Shown piece by piece: positions 3,083 to 35,053 of a stretch of DNA of 35,053 bases. Source of the DNA: a virus; the IMG/VR virus record IMGVR_UViG_3300042988_000546, positions 1 to 35,053 of that record; one strand, given 5' to 3'. The first letter of the stretch is position 1. Each line of letters opens with the position of its first letter. Both the position numbers and the translations under genes were made by a program. A model generated the notes under the pieces. It was not told the origin of the DNA, did not search any database, and was given only the letters and a program-made list of their open reading frames with translations.

Positions 3083-3286
3083 TTAATCCCACTCCTCCTT
3101 ATCGGCTTGACTTTGTGCCATAACGGCAATAATTTGACGTTCACGCTCTGTAAACTGTTCCCAGTTATTTTGCCAATCATAAGGAACATAGTTTCTCCAA
3201 TCGTGGACTTTTGATGTGTTTTTAAAATCAGGATTGTTAATATCAATCATTGACAACTCTGCTGTGTAATCTTGAAATAAGTTCAT
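3083..3286 (-). CDS. Cassette 8: small hypothetical protein
   Basis: From the ATG at 3284-3286 the product is 67 residues (MNLFQDYTAELSMIDI..). It is tryptophan-rich in the middle (DWRNYVPYDWQNNW) with a charged, helical C-terminal half. The frame stays open to 3313 through the inverse core (read as LLCAV), but no ATG is found there. No family is recognised. It is the sole gene of its cassette. Confidence 0.6.
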   Translation of the reverse strand: MNLFQDYTAELSMIDINNPDFKNTSKVHDWRNYVPYDWQNNWEQFTERERQIIAVMAQSQADKEEWD

Positions 3287-3301
3287 CGTTCTAAGTTTAA
3301 C

Positions 3302-3402
3302 GGCACATAACAAGGGTTTTGCGTAATAGCCCTATCAAGTGTCGTGGTTAATTTTAATTTTTTACTAAGGGCTACTACGCAAAGCCCCGAACGTTAGCGG
3401 AA
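3302..3402 (+). repeat. attC-like site H (end of cassette 8)
   Basis: The inverse core AAC is at 3309-3311 and the core GTT at 3393-3395. Arms GGGTTTTGCGTA (3314-3325) and TACGCAAAGCCC (3376-3387) pair over 12 positions with one wobble. The inverse core matches the cassette's own start at 3072-3081 in 10 of 10 bases. The TGAC motif common to other left arms is missing here. Confidence 0.85.
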
Positions 3403-3405
3403 ATA

Positions 3406-30786: not shown

Positions 30787-31119
30787 TTATTGTTTGTATT
30801 TGAGAAAATCGATTATTTCTTTTCGGTTACCATCTTGGTAACATATTTGGGCAATCCCACCGCAAGTATGGCAGTCTAACAATCGGTGCTTTTGTTCTTC
30901 GCTTAATCGGTCGCCGTTCTTTTTTACCTCGCAAAGCACAATCTTGCCGCTGTTGGTGTAGCCTTGAACATCTGGCCATCCTTTCTGTACGTTGTTTTTT
31001 CTGCCCCTTACGGGAATGTTGTTAACACGCCTTACCCGATAGCCTAACGCTGTGTAGTATTCAATAGCGTAAGCTGTTAACTCACTTGCGGTAAATTCTT
31101 TAGAACTTTGGAATGTCAT
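30787..31119 (-). CDS. VRR-NUC domain nuclease
   Basis: The 110-residue protein is a compact PD-(D/E)XK nuclease of the VRR-NUC type: GWPDVQGY (about 47-54, catalytic D50) and VLCEVKKNGDRLSEEQKHRL (about 61-80, catalytic E64 and K66), then HTCGGIAQICY. Such phage enzymes act on branched or flapped DNA. It overlaps the DnaB gene end, placing it in the replication operon. Confidence 0.85.
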   Translation of the reverse strand: MTFQSSKEFTASELTAYAIEYYTALGYRVRRVNNIPVRGRKNNVQKGWPDVQGYTNSGKIVLCEVKKNGDRLSEEQKHRLLDCHTCGGIAQICYQDGNRKEIIDFLKYKQ

Positions 31120-32491
31120 TATGGATAAAACCTTTTGTTGTTGGTAGTTGCTTTACTTCGTTATGATAGCCAATACAGTGCCATTTTTGTTTTTGGCCAT
31201 CGGCTTCGAACTCAAAACTATTCAATTCACCGTTCCGATACTTCGCAATCTTCAAATACTTTTTGTTAGCTAGGTCGGCATTTTGCAACTTTTCTTCATC
31301 GCTGTGGCCGTAGATAAAACAAACCATGTCGGCATCTTGTTCTATTGCTCCACTCTCTCGCAAGTCTGATAGCTGTGGTATTTTGCTGCCACCTCTTTTT
31401 TCTACGTCACGACTCAACTGTGAAAGGGCAATGATAGGAACGTTCAATTCTTTTGCCAGCTGCTTTAACCCACGGCTAATTTCGCTAATTTCTTGCTCAC
31501 GGTTACCATTGCTACGTCTGTCACCTGTTACTAGTTGGAGGTAATCAATGATAATCATGCCTACCCCTTCACGCTGTACCATCCGCTTTGCTTTATTTTT
31601 CAAGCTCCAAAAGTTCAACCCTGCTGTATCATCAACCCAAAGTGATAAGGTACTAAGCCTTTCAGCATCTTCCAATAATACCTCGCTAGTAGTGCCACGT
31701 CCTTTGCTTAGCTCGGTCATCGTGTACTTACCGCTAATTGCCATCAACCTCTTAGCTAACTGCCATGTGGGCATCTCTAGGCTAAAGTAACCAACTGCTA
31801 TTGGCTTGTAGTAGCTTATCATCGCATTGTAGGCAATGTTAAGGGCAAAAGCTGTTTTGCCGACTGATGGTCTTGCTGCCAAAATTACTAAGTCGGGTGC
31901 TTGCCATCCGCTAGTCGCATCGTTAAGTGCTAAGTACCCAGTATCAACCCCTGTTATCGGTGCTGTGTTGGTTCGTGCTTCATCCGCCTTTTGTATCACT
32001 GTTACTGCACCATCGGCAATATGTTGGTAGTGGTTAGTCTTAATCTGGTTAGCAATAGCAAATACTACGCTTTCATGGCCTTGCAAAATATCATCGCTTG
32101 TAGCTTCGTTTTCGTAGCAGCTTACCATCGTTTCGTGACATGCTTTGATTAAATCCCTTTTCACCTGCATATCCTTCACTGCTGCTATGTAGCTCTCAAG
32201 TTCTCTAGGTGCTACGTAGCCAGATGTTAGGCTACTCAGCCAGAAAAAGTTTTCTTTTTGGTTTTCTAAGTCCTTGCTAATCTTTTCAGCTATGGTGTAG
32301 TAGTTGATAGCTTCACGCTTTCTTAGCAGTTCAAAGCAAGCTTTTATCACGTCTTGATGTAATGGCTTGTAAAAGCTTTCGGGAGTAAGATACTCGCCTA
32401 TGTCATCGAACACCTGAGCATTCTGTACGATGGCGGCGATTATCCTTTCTTCGTAGATGCTGCTATGTGGTTGTAGTTTGGCTTCAATCAT
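31100..32491 (-). CDS. dnaB: Replicative DNA helicase
   Basis: The 463-residue protein has the DnaB N-terminal domain (SIYEERIIAAIVQNAQVF..) and RecA-like helicase domain with Walker A LAARPSVGKTAFALN, a YFSLEMP motif, Walker B MIIIDYLQLVTG and a final SQLSRDVEKRGG/SDLRESGAIEQDAD region. It unwinds the phage replication fork. It follows the primosomal gene and overlaps it by 8 bases. Confidence 0.95.
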   Translation of the reverse strand: MIEAKLQPHSSIYEERIIAAIVQNAQVFDDIGEYLTPESFYKPLHQDVIKACFELLRKREAINYYTIAEKISKDLENQKENFFWLSSLTSGYVAPRELESYIAAVKDMQVKRDLIKACHETMVSCYENEATSDDILQGHESVVFAIANQIKTNHYQHIADGAVTVIQKADEARTNTAPITGVDTGYLALNDATSGWQAPDLVILAARPSVGKTAFALNIAYNAMISYYKPIAVGYFSLEMPTWQLAKRLMAISGKYTMTELSKGRGTTSEVLLEDAERLSTLSLWVDDTAGLNFWSLKNKAKRMVQREGVGMIIIDYLQLVTGDRRSNGNREQEISEISRGLKQLAKELNVPIIALSQLSRDVEKRGGSKIPQLSDLRESGAIEQDADMVCFIYGHSDEEKLQNADLANKKYLKIAKYRNGELNSFEFEADGQKQKWHCIGYHNEVKQLPTTKGFIHNDIPKF

Positions 32492-33320
32492 TTTTCATCC
32501 ATTTTTTAATTGTTAAATGAACACTAATATAATTTTTGGATAAGTTTGGCCTATTAGCTAGTGACTCAAGCTTTTCTACAAATTTTGCGTAATAAGAAGG
32601 GATGGTATCAATTTTTATTTTGTATTCTAAAAATTGGTCAATAGTCAATTGCTTTTCAATTTCCCGCAATTCTGGTATTTCAGCATCTATCCATTGATTG
32701 AATTTTTCAAAGCTTTCAATCTGTTGTTGTGTGTAGTTCGATTTATCGAACTCTAAATACAATTTATTCTTTTCATTTAATTTCTTTTCTTTTCTTTTCT
32801 TTTCTTTTGCATCTTTTAGCATCGGTTGAGCATTGCTTGGTTCATGCGCTTGCATATCTTGAGCATTGCTTGGTTCATGCGCTTGCATATCTTCAATTGC
32901 TTTATTAACATCAACAACTGGACTTTCTTCTTTTTCTAGCTCATTATGAGTATCATTCTTTAACTCTAGCGTAGGATGTTTTTTGCTTTCCCACCTTTTT
33001 TGCGCTGCTAATGATGCCTTATTTTTCATCATTTCCATGCTTTGCTTTAGCCTAAGACTGAAAAACATATTATTTTCAACTACAAATAAATTGTAATTAT
33101 TAATAACTGTTTTTATTTTTTCAGCGCTTGTATTCCAATATCTAGCGTAAATAGTAACTACTGATATTGGAAGAGTATATGTATCTTCCTGCCTTAACTT
33201 TTCAATTAAAGCCCAAAATATGCCATATCCTTCCATCCCTAGTTGGTCAATAAGTAGTAGGCATTTTGGGTCATCTTGAGCATTACTATCATGGCTAAAG
33301 TAGTATGCGCTATTTTTCAT
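32484..33320 (-). CDS. Phage replication initiation protein (primosomal, DnaD-like)
   Basis: The 278-residue protein starts with a winged-helix-like region found in many phage replication proteins (AYYFSHDSNAQDDPKCLLLI, then GMEGYGIFWALIEKL), has a charged low-complexity linker, and a C-terminal helical domain. It probably loads the helicase encoded next. The linker contains an exact 11-residue tandem repeat and a Lys/Glu-rich stretch from TTTTC-type repeats, regions likely to vary in length. Confidence 0.75.
   Translation of the reverse strand: MKNSAYYFSHDSNAQDDPKCLLLIDQLGMEGYGIFWALIEKLRQEDTYTLPISVVTIYARYWNTSAEKIKTVINNYNLFVVENNMFFSLRLKQSMEMMKNKASLAAQKRWESKKHPTLELKNDTHNELEKEESPVVDVNKAIEDMQAHEPSNAQDMQAHEPSNAQPMLKDAKEKKRKEKKLNEKNKLYLEFDKSNYTQQQIESFEKFNQWIDAEIPELREIEKQLTIDQFLEYKIKIDTIPSYYAKFVEKLESLANRPNLSKNYISVHLTIKKWMKND
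32781..32893 (+). repeat. Tandem repeats inside the replication protein gene
   Basis: A 33-bp unit occurs twice exactly (32828-32860 and 32861-32893), encoding the 11-residue block DMQAHEPSNAQ twice. Just before it lies a run of five TTTTC-type units (about 32781-32808) encoding Lys/Glu/Arg. Both fall in the interdomain linker. Confidence 0.9.
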
Positions 33321-33873
33321 TGAAACCTCCTAATTCTTTAAAGTTTTCAGTTTCGTAATTGAAAAAAATATTGCCGTCTTTGTAATTATAAGTAACAAGT
33401 TCGATACATATTTTGTGTTCGCTTATTTCTGTATGCTTATTGTATATGTCATCTTTTAAAATATCTTGAGTTGCATTGTCATGATAATTGAATAGACTAG
33501 CTAAGTATTTTACGTTGCTAATATCTGGGCACTTATTACCTATTAATACAATTCTATAATTGTATAGGTTTGATTTACCACGTAGTCTTAAATATGAATA
33601 AATGCCATGTAAATATTTACTTGCTTGTAAAATAGATTGAGCTGTTATGTTATCTTTTTTTAGCTCATAAACAGTAATTAAACCTCTACATACTTTATTG
33701 AAGTAAGTATGCATATATGGCCTTTGAAGTGTAACAATGTCTGCGACTCCATAATTACCAATTGTTAATTGTGACTTTATTAAGTCATAATTAAACAAAA
33801 GCCCATTCTCTATAAGCTTTTCTTTACTGTTTTTTAGAATGTACAATTCAACATTCTTTTCTAATAAATTCAT
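33310..33873 (-). CDS. PD-(D/E)XK nuclease-like protein
   Basis: The 187-residue protein contains GNYGVADIVTL (about 39-49, D45), TVYELKKDNIT (about 67-77, E70 and K72) and QSILQASKYLHG (about 79-90). This is the acid, E-x-K and Gln/Tyr helix pattern of restriction-endonuclease-fold nucleases. It may process replication or recombination intermediates or attack host DNA. It is the first gene of the replication operon, behind a structured leader that may control it. It overlaps the primosomal gene by 11 bases. Confidence 0.65.
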   Translation of the reverse strand: MNLLEKNVELYILKNSKEKLIENGLLFNYDLIKSQLTIGNYGVADIVTLQRPYMHTYFNKVCRGLITVYELKKDNITAQSILQASKYLHGIYSYLRLRGKSNLYNYRIVLIGNKCPDISNVKYLASLFNYHDNATQDILKDDIYNKHTEISEHKICIELVTYNYKDGNIFFNYETENFKELGGFNEK

Positions 33874-33885
33874 AAAATAAAGATA

Positions 33886-33986
33886 GCCCTTACGGCCTGC
33901 GGTCGAAGCGGTAGCTATTAAACTACCTCGCAGGCGGTAAAGGCCATAATAAGTTGACGGTTTCGCTTAGGCTTCGACCTCTAAGC
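33886..33986 (-). ncRNA. Candidate structured 5' leader RNA with a pseudoknot
   Basis: Read on the minus strand, a first hairpin (GCTTAG/CTAAGC, 33965-33986) has a 10-base loop containing GGTCGAAGC. A second long hairpin stacks GCCTTTAC/GTAAGGGC, GCCTGCG/CGCAGGC and GGTAG/CTACC (33886-33944). Its internal loop carries GCTTCGACC, perfectly complementary (9 bp) to the first loop. One outer pair is G-U on this strand but would be C-A on the other, favouring minus-strand RNA. The RNA would begin at the 5' base of the first hairpin and end about 12 bases before the nuclease ATG. No known riboswitch is recognised. Confidence 0.65.
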
Positions 33987-33990
33987 ACCA

Positions 33991-33998
33991 CAAATATA
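33991..33998 (-). promoter_or_regulatory. Bacteroidota -7 promoter element TATATTTG for the replication operon
   Basis: On the minus strand TATATTTG matches TAnnTTTG exactly. Transcription expected 5-7 bases downstream would start at the first base of the leader hairpin (33986). A TTG lies about 22 bases upstream. Confidence 0.65.
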
Positions 33999-34005
33999 AA
34001 TAAAA

Positions 34006-34434
34006 CTACTTTAAAAGGTACAATTCCTGCTTTGCGTGCTCCACGAATTTACCCACAATTTCGGTGTAAATTACATCCTTGTATGACAGCTTTTGTGCCA
34101 CGTCATGGCAAGCGTGGATAATAGCCGAATGGTCATATGTACGGCCTTTAACCTTAGCTATCTGGGTGAGTGTAGTGGTCGTATAATTTCGCATTAGGAA
34201 AAAATACACGAACCTTTCACTAACGTACTCTTGCTTACGACAGTTGATGTTAGCAAAGCCTTCACTATTTCGGAAATAGTCCTTAATAATGCTATACATG
34301 TAATCATGCGAAAGCCGCCTGCACCCTTGCCAAAATCCTAAATCGTACATAGCCCTGTACTTTTCTTCGCTTTCGAATGGTAAGCCTAATAATACTATTC
34401 TATCGGTGCTGTAGTGCTTGTAACTTGAGGCCAT
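34006..34434 (-). CDS. DnaA domain IV-like DNA-binding protein
   Basis: From the ATG at 34432-34434 (MASSYKHYSTDRIV..) the product is 142 residues. The C-terminal TLTQIAKVKGRTYDHSAIIH plus ACHDV closely follows the DnaA signature (..GRDHSTVIHAC..), the helix-turn-helix that reads DnaA boxes. There is no AAA+ ATPase domain. It may act as a phage origin-binding protein or compete with host DnaA. It lies immediately before the structured leader and the replication operon. Confidence 0.75.
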   Translation of the reverse strand: MASSYKHYSTDRIVLLGLPFESEEKYRAMYDLGFWQGCRRLSHDYMYSIIKDYFRNSEGFANINCRKQEYVSERFVYFFLMRNYTTTTLTQIAKVKGRTYDHSAIIHACHDVAQKLSYKDVIYTEIVGKFVEHAKQELYLLK

Positions 34435-34435
34435 G

Positions 34436-34669
34436 TTATTTATTTTCGTTTTGAACAACTTTTTTAATAATATACCTAGTGTGATTAGGATTTACAGTTG
34501 CTTGAATGTACCAAAGTTTTTCATGAATAGGCAAAAACTTAAACTTATCAACTATTTTTTTATGTTTTCTCTTAAACTTCCTAGGCATTCTAACACCTTT
34601 GTAATAAGGGCTAAAATTAGCGGGCAATGTAAAGTGCTTATCTAGTTGCTCGTAAGGTATTTGCTGCAT
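34436..34669 (-). CDS. Hypothetical basic protein
   Basis: The 77-residue protein is strongly basic (MPRKFKRKHKKIVDKFKF) with a C-terminal beta/basic segment (TRYIIKKVVQNENK), suggesting nucleic-acid binding. No family is recognised. It is tightly packed: it overlaps the upstream gene by 32 bases, and its stop lies one base before the ATG of the DnaA-like gene. Confidence 0.6.
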   Translation of the reverse strand: MQQIPYEQLDKHFTLPANFSPYYKGVRMPRKFKRKHKKIVDKFKFLPIHEKLWYIQATVNPNHTRYIIKKVVQNENK

Positions 34670-34988
34670 TTTGTTTGTATTTTAAAGCTCTTTGTAAATA
34701 GTTTCTTTTGTAATATTCGATGCTTAGTTTCTTGCCGTACTCTTTGCACATAAACCAGTAATCGAAAGCGGGGCAAGGGTAATCGAATATCCACCCGTCA
34801 AGCCAGTATCTATGCCAGCACGTCCACGGGGCTATTAGCTTGGTAACTGTTACCTTGCTATTCCCAACGTTTATGTACCAGCATTCTTTGTCTTTTTTCT
34901 TTTTTACTGGGTATTCGTTACGTGCACGGTCAATGATAACATGCCGTGAACTTTCGTACTGTAGTTGGTCTAAGATGCTTGGTTTCAT
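34638..34988 (-). CDS. Hypothetical protein next to the cassette array
   Basis: The 116-residue protein (MKPSILDQLQYESSRHVIID..) is rich in Trp, Tyr and Lys (LIAPWTCWHRYWLDGWIFDY), with a basic C-terminal end (LQRALKYKQNAAN). No known motif is visible. In the circular map it lies directly downstream of the attI-like core and array, so it is the first backbone gene reached by transcription through the cassettes. No promoter is evident in front of it. Confidence 0.65.
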   Translation of the reverse strand: MKPSILDQLQYESSRHVIIDRARNEYPVKKKKDKECWYINVGNSKVTVTKLIAPWTCWHRYWLDGWIFDYPCPAFDYWFMCKEYGKKLSIEYYKRNYLQRALKYKQNAANTLRATR

Positions 34989-35053
34989 TGCGTTTTATTT
35001 GAAGGGCGGTTATTTATGCGTTACCTGCCATTAAAAGACAGACAACATTCAGG
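34909..35053 (+). repeat. Terminal direct repeat (copy 2) with alternative cassette junction
   Basis: 34909-35032 equals 1-124. 35019-35053 equals 1106-1140. The two matches share the 14-bp core region CGTTACCTGCCATT, so this end records the attI-like core joined directly to cassette 3 with cassettes 1 and 2 absent (995 bp skipped). Confidence 0.9.

Follow-up and report, generated by a model that had tools for sequence, protein, structure and literature searches.

The replication operon of the phage described here is preceded by a member of a leader RNA family in which the loop of the first hairpin pairs with the hairpin beside the start codon, so that the RNA is probably a switch deciding when the phage copies its DNA. 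The element occupies positions 33998-33874 on the minus strand of the window, i.e. of the whole analysed stretch of 35,053 nucleotides from the IMG/VR virus record IMGVR_UViG_3300042988_000546, and about 80 distinct sequences of the family were found in IMG/VR phage contigs. Covariation across these relatives shows an RNA with the helices P1, P2 and P3 and a kissing pseudoknot. We hold with moderate confidence that this 5' leader attenuates transcription of the phage replication operon, whereby termination would occur at a U-rich tract before the first gene and would be modulated by the pseudoknot. The timing of gene expression in Bacteroidota phages is little known, and the element is a concrete and mutable object that comes with a clear prediction on the pseudoknot and with a covariance model ready for annotation.

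The element in the window and the operon behind it

All parts of the element are read from the minus strand. The -7 promoter box TATATTTG (33991..33998), recognized from the sequence, is of the Bacteroidota sigma-ABfr type, and the TTG at 34021-34023 may be a -33 element. The hairpin P1 (33965..33986) is located at the expected first transcribed bases and is formed by GCTTAG (33986-33981) and CTAAGC (33970-33965); its loop consists of A33980 and GGTCGAAGC (33979-33971), which reads A-GGUCGAAGC as RNA. A linker (33946..33964), which is A-rich in most relatives (alignments A1, A3 and A6), connects P1 to the long P2/P3 hairpin (33885..33945), as derived from the MFE fold and from covariation in P2 and P3. 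In the outer part of P2, GGCCUUUAC (33945-33937) pairs with GUAAGGGCU (33893-33885), in its inner part GCCUGC (33935-33930) with GCAGGC (33900-33895), and in P3 GGUAG (33927-33923) with CUACC (33914-33910). The 5' strand of the pseudoknot, GGUCGAAGC in the P1 loop (33971..33979), is complementary over 9 bp to the 3' strand GCTTCGACC (RNA GCUUCGACC; 33901..33909), which forms the 3' side of the P2/P3 internal loop. As the last of these pairs, G33979-C33901, competes with a P2 pair, the universal pseudoknot core comprises 8 bp. The promoter, P1, the linker, the three-tier hairpin and the 9-bp loop pairing had all been located correctly in the first-pass annotation of this DNA, which did not remark on the terminator-like U-rich tract AUCUUUAUUUU (33874..33884) directly 3' of P2. 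This tract is interrupted in the window and weaker than in most relatives, and it points to an attenuator. The RNA 33986-33874 folds with -43.3 kcal/mol (z = -4.42), which none of 200 shuffles equals, and the P2/P3 hairpin alone is very stable with -33.5 kcal/mol.

The long hairpin ends 11 nt 5' of the ATG at 33873, the start of a gene for a protein of 187 aa (33310..33873, minus strand). The element had been said to end beside the start codon of a nuclease; the start codon is indeed there, but the nuclease is a motif impression, namely a weak PD-(D/E)XK-like motif seen by eye (D...ExK), and the function is putative. The protein has no match in Pfam, PHROGs or NCBIfam, and its AlphaFold model is of very low confidence (pLDDT 34). 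A homologue of 37% identity is encoded by the Cellulophaga phage Nekkels. Apart from one weak homologue in Cellulophaga phages, which do not possess the element, searches of viral and genome collections with this protein and with the DnaA_C-like gene upstream of the element gave no relatives. The first gene is followed by a replication initiation protein (32484..33320, minus strand; profile match to Lin1244_N, PHROG 2562) and by the replicative helicase DnaB (31100..32491, minus strand; E = 2.4e-82), in agreement with the earlier assignment of the leader to a replication operon. The gene directly upstream of the element (34006-34458, minus strand) encodes a small protein carrying the C-terminal DNA-binding domain of DnaA (E = 2e-8).

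Further features of the window lie outside this operon. At 3285-3405 on the minus strand, an imperfect inverted repeat with the sequence TAACGTTCGGGGCTTTGCGTA...TACGCAAAACCCTTGTTATGTGCCGTT lies between genes (fold z = -4.6); it occurs as a single strong copy in the window and bears a loose similarity to an attC-like end of an integron or to the end of a mobile element. An exact direct repeat of 124 bp is found near both ends (1-124 and 34909-35032), and the 35 bp at 1106-1140 are repeated at the very end (35019-35053). The genome may thus be circular or terminally redundant, with a small artefact introduced by the assembly.

The RNA family and the covariation of its helices

As the first protein and the upstream protein have almost no detectable relatives, related elements were sought in IMG/VR by means of the two pseudoknot strands at the right spacing. 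The first pattern scan gave 85 matches besides the window, and 44 showed the full layout in AT-rich phage contigs; 42 pattern matches without P1, nearly all in GC-rich DNA, were rejected. For the covariance model R1, 23 type A sequences were used together with the pairs of P1, P2 and P3, leaving out the pseudoknot pairs; along with two further pattern scans it yielded more members, with E-values that are rough. Antisense matches of the covariance model are mirror images of the same near-palindromic element and were discarded. The layout is constant: a TAnnTTTG-type promoter, P1, linker, P2/P3, a pseudoknot of 8-9 bp, a U run and an ATG. Type A elements possess P3 and resemble that of the window, and in type B the partner strand is placed in the apical loop of the terminator-like hairpin. 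The relatives are mostly metagenomic, and many of the contigs are partial. A strict descriptor of the whole arrangement found 37 matches in 2.5 Mb of fetched loci, many of which had been fetched for this pattern, and none in reversed or Markov-shuffled copies of the same 2.5 Mb.

For a sample that does not depend on the pseudoknot, the DnaB proteins of 12 element-bearing loci and the window were aligned, and 80 loci were fetched by DnaB homology alone. R1 found the element in 51 of 79 new loci, always on the dnaB strand, with some contigs being the same records as in the first set. If at least 2.2 kb upstream of dnaB are available, the element is present in 42 of 45 DnaB-chosen loci, at a median distance of 1143 nt before dnaB. 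The family is thus found in most phages of one DnaB clade, with divergent forms in others, and always before early or replication genes.

The first-pass annotation had recognized no known riboswitch and had proposed a search of Rfam and with covariance models. No Rfam 15 family matches the window, a canonical relative or a type B relative at or above the gathering cut-off; the type B member gave sub-threshold matches to attenuators such as Phe_leader and PyrR. The motifs of a 2017 study on 224 candidate RNAs are expected to be covered for the most part by Rfam. Searches with blastn in INPHARED and PLSDB detected no family member, no cultured phage with the element was found, and the closest cultured DnaB has less than 60% identity. 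A scan of genome contigs gave 13 matches, all in non-Bacteroidota genomes and likely due to chance. The family, which has no entry in Rfam 15, is previously uncatalogued as far as the open-access literature is concerned, and an earlier description elsewhere is possible.

All four helices, namely P1, P2, P3 and the pseudoknot, covary strongly. In alignment A3 (38 members), 97.5% of the cells are paired, both sides have changed in 23 of 34 pairs, and none of 500 shuffles reaches the observed value on any measure. The first set could not test the pseudoknot helix because it was collected by the pseudoknot sequence; alignment A6 was chosen by DnaB homology. Here, 97.3% of the cells are paired, 26 of 34 pairs have changed on both sides, and none of 500 shuffles is as high on covariation. 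P1 likewise covaries in the family, with changes on both sides in 5 of 6 pairs. Within the pseudoknot, both sides have changed in 29, 9, 24 and 25 of 47 cells at the A6 columns 17, 18, 19 and 21, whereas columns 15 and 22 have changed once each, and columns 16 and 20 never change; compensated changes in this sample are found at columns 15, 17, 18, 19, 21 and 22. The partner of column 14 also serves P2, so that this column is not paired in every element. The pseudoknotted leader RNA had been thought to fall if its pairs were neither conserved nor covarying in related phages, and the opposite, a very strong covariation, was observed. The strand of the RNA could be fixed as well: the stems of 78 distinct elements hold 196 G-U and only 7 A-C cells, and such tolerance of G-U but not of A-C corresponds to the sense strand, i.e. 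the minus strand in the window, for which a G-U pair had been adduced before. The pseudoknot of the same elements has no G-U in about 700 cells, in contrast to about 10% in the stems.

The 51 DnaB-chosen elements carry about 20 pseudoknot words, and the 8-bp core is by inspection complementary in all of them, in one case only after shifting an alignment gap; the sequence consensus of R1 may favour similar loops, but not complementarity. R1 also found the element in a locus that had been fetched for its terminase (L217), with the pseudoknot GGUAGAAGC/GCUUCUACC. Most records contain one element, while two records contain two each with differing pseudoknots: the tandem elements of L278 have GGUUGAAGC/GCUUCAACC and the unrelated CUUAACCC/GGGUUAAG, and a second element in the L131 record has GGUGGAAUC/GAUUCCACC. 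The tandem leaders of L278 (11545-11425 and 11188-11065, minus strand) are 360 nt apart and precede a small ORF and a primase-like gene. These variable kissing loops represent a natural set of apparently orthogonal RNA pairs.

The layout extends to elements of unrelated sequence. Over 350 loci (3.1 Mb), a relaxed descriptor gave 118 matches compared to 13 in the reversed sequence; single matches can be chance. The additional matches include elements that show the same layout, in the apical-loop form, before replication-type genes or initiators of other phages. L206 and its relatives carry GTCGGAT/ATCCGAC, and L235 a compensated variant, GTAGGAT/ATCCTAC; in L214 a kissing interaction of 9 bp is located directly before a Lin1244-like initiator homologous to the second gene of the window, and L192 and L360 have further such elements before replication-type genes. 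These elements are supported by the L206/L235 covariation and by gene context. A minimal element with 7-bp kissing and a 4-bp P1 was seen in L009 (2560-2654, plus strand), downstream of dnaB and before an 89-aa ORF, which is followed by thymidylate-synthase-like and cytosine-methyltransferase-like ORFs (assigned by eye).

Proposed control of the replication operon

A TAnnTT[T/C/A] box is located 10-18 nt before P1 in all 77 members with enough upstream sequence. It matches the Bacteroides -7 promoter consensus TAnnTTTG (PMC7366714), from which it follows that the hosts of these phages are probably Bacteroidota and that P1 is probably at the start of the RNA. At the other end of the element, the first 8 bases after P2 contain on average 6.45 T in the family, a T run of at least 5 follows P2 in 88% of the elements in contrast to 7% of 933 control ORF starts, and the ATG comes 6-19 nt after P2. 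A simple terminator scan, which accepts loops of 3-8 only, found none for this reason. As read from these features, the sequence of promoter, stem, U tract and ATG is the layout of a conditional terminator before an operon, and two features of an attenuator leader are present, namely a promoter with a leader before the operon and a terminator-like stem with a U tract before the gene.

In the attenuation mechanism that we favour, the host RNA polymerase would start at P1, and P2 together with the U tract would act as an intrinsic terminator, so that a short RNA of some 115 nt would be released ahead of the first gene. Being transcribed first, the P1 loop would capture the complementary strand as that emerges and thereby delay or reshape P2, which shares one base with the pseudoknot, and the kissing interaction would in this way set the read-through of the polymerase into the replication genes. 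A competitor for the P1 loop or its partner strand, be it an RNA, a protein or transcription speed, could then determine the timing or level of DNA replication. That the pseudoknot favours read-through rather than termination is a guess. The pseudoknot, with its one shared base, is the only competitor of P2 noticed in the alignments, and no second helix was noticed there. As P2 is very stable and no alternative antiterminator helix was noticed, it is not obvious how the pseudoknot could prevent termination. The interrupted U tract of the window also speaks against attenuation, and a terminator-like stem so near to the ATG might rather influence how the first gene is translated or how stable the mRNA is.

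The first gene differs across the family and encodes DUF6291 proteins, O-like initiators, small ORFs, DNA methyltransferases, endonuclease-like proteins or ResIII helicases, with an initiator or helicase loader and then dnaB downstream in most cases. In the locus pairs L093/L099 and L317/L320, the elements are identical outside the pseudoknot and the first genes are unrelated. Since a variable first gene is succeeded by initiator and dnaB, the operon is more likely the regulated unit than one protein, and autoregulation by the first gene product, one of the functions considered previously, is unlikely since this gene is exchanged between otherwise near-identical elements. The slot between leader and initiator holds exchangeable genes for DNA methyltransferases, nuclease-like proteins and small ORFs in these pairs, in L206/L235 and in others, and this slot could represent an early accessory locus, perhaps one for anti-defence.

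The variability of the pseudoknot permits a more far-reaching interpretation, which we offer tentatively: the hypervariable, self-complementary kissing loop of this widespread leader family could provide a phage-specific RNA control of the replication operon, with RNAs of co-infecting phages or of the host, or other molecules, as cognate regulators. If true, phage-specific kissing loops would correspond, at the RNA level and in lytic phages, to the incompatibility of plasmids. A specificity switch acting in trans would resemble plasmid RNAI/RNAII or the IncI-type systems of pseudoknot and antisense RNA: the P1 loop or its partner would be kissed by the short leader RNA or by an RNA from the host or from a competing phage, and the loops would diversify for escape or compatibility. 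Such a switch is unlikely in our view, but several observations agree with it. The pseudoknot words form about 20 discrete, compensated types that avoid G-U, and where one phage has two elements (L278, G023), these carry words that do not cross-pair. Moreover, 5 of the 18 pseudoknot bases differ between L343 and L344, compared to 1 other base of the element, with flanks about 93.5% identical, and L126 and L317 show 4 differences in the pseudoknot and 1 elsewhere, with flanks about 94% identical. Such differences in near-identical elements are suggestive of switching between specificity types, and the specificity of plasmid RNAI can indeed be altered by few bases (PMC10724649). However, all pseudoknot change among 15 close mutual-nearest pairs falls into 3 of them, and the average rate per site in the pseudoknot (0.041), higher than in the stems (0.012), is similar to that of unpaired bases (0.034). 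The antisense TAnnTTTG box is not enriched, with 5 of 89 element regions against 14 of 89 controls for that promoter type, and the pseudoknot word occurs elsewhere in the fetched, incomplete loci 16 times against 21.6 expected, i.e. without excess. As no tyrosine integrase was found in 20 records, a role in lysogenic immunity is also unlikely.

The element could alternatively be a protein-binding site, where a phage regulator, the initiator or a host ribosomal or Nus protein reads the kissing complex, or where the RNA acts like a put site and renders the polymerase resistant to later terminators. The location where transcription of an early-type operon begins, as for HK022 put (PMC9378689), and the near fixation of the pseudoknot columns 15, 16, 20 and 22 while others vary would fit, but the four freely varying pairs argue against a direct reading of the sequence, no conserved regulator gene was noticed beside the element, and put has about 70 nt with two stem-loops (PMC9378689) instead of a long terminator-like stem with a U tract. 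We consider such a site rather improbable. A passive role, in which the pseudoknot guards the 5' end of the mRNA and the U tract serves as an unstructured landing site for ribosomes, would account for P1 at the expected 5' end and for a U tract adjoining the ATG. It appears quite improbable, as the T run sits at the very foot of P2, as in terminators, and is rare at control starts, and as P2 would leave the ribosome little room in elements with an ATG at a distance of 6-7 nt.

The ligand sensor and the ribozyme, both proposed earlier on account of a compact pseudoknotted fold in a 5' leader, are very unlikely, since outside the U tract near invariance of unpaired positions is confined to A13, A40 and the GA that precedes P3, the core helix can be exchanged, the downstream genes vary and no Rfam riboswitch or ribozyme matches. 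An operator pair or replication origin hairpins at the DNA level, for which perfect inverted repeats without G-U near replication genes might speak, are highly improbable given the preference of the stems for G-U over A-C, the same-strand promoter that always precedes and the repeats themselves, which always coincide exactly with the loop of P1 and with the internal or apical loop of P2/P3.

Relation to known systems

In pistol ribozymes, the loop of a 5' hairpin pairs with the internal loop of a second hairpin, which resembles the element. Pistol pairs the 5' side of the internal loop, however, whereas the P1 loop pairs with the 3' side in the window and in all A3 and A6 members, which upholds the initial view that the strand order is not that of pistol; the element also has no conserved cleavage core, and the pistol model of Rfam gave no match even at permissive thresholds. 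In phage P4, too, the CI RNA with its c4 antisense RNA combines complementary segments with termination control in an operon leader, there of a replication or early operon. The complementary segments of the element are instead part of one compact fold, and the 20 records without tyrosine integrase set these phages apart from P4.

The pseudoknots and antisense RNAs of the IncIalpha, IncB and IncL-M rep leaders and the pT181 attenuator are also found in leaders of replication genes, a 5'-near hairpin loop likewise pairs there with a strand near the downstream gene, and the loops are specificity determinants (PMC10724649 and references therein). The plasmid pseudoknots activate translation, whereas the phage element has a terminator-like stem with a U tract, no antisense promoter was found for it, and it shows no sequence match in Rfam. 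HK022 putL and putR are, like the element, cis-acting phage RNAs downstream of an early promoter and probably act on transcription. They comprise about 70 nt with two stem-loops (PMC9378689), a structure that the element does not have; in it, a pseudoknot and a terminator-like stem are combined with a promoter of the Bacteroidota. Although neither is matched in detail, the plasmid kissing-loop rep leaders (PMC10724649) and HK022 put (PMC9378689) are, on the features compared here, the nearest functional models for this leader RNA.
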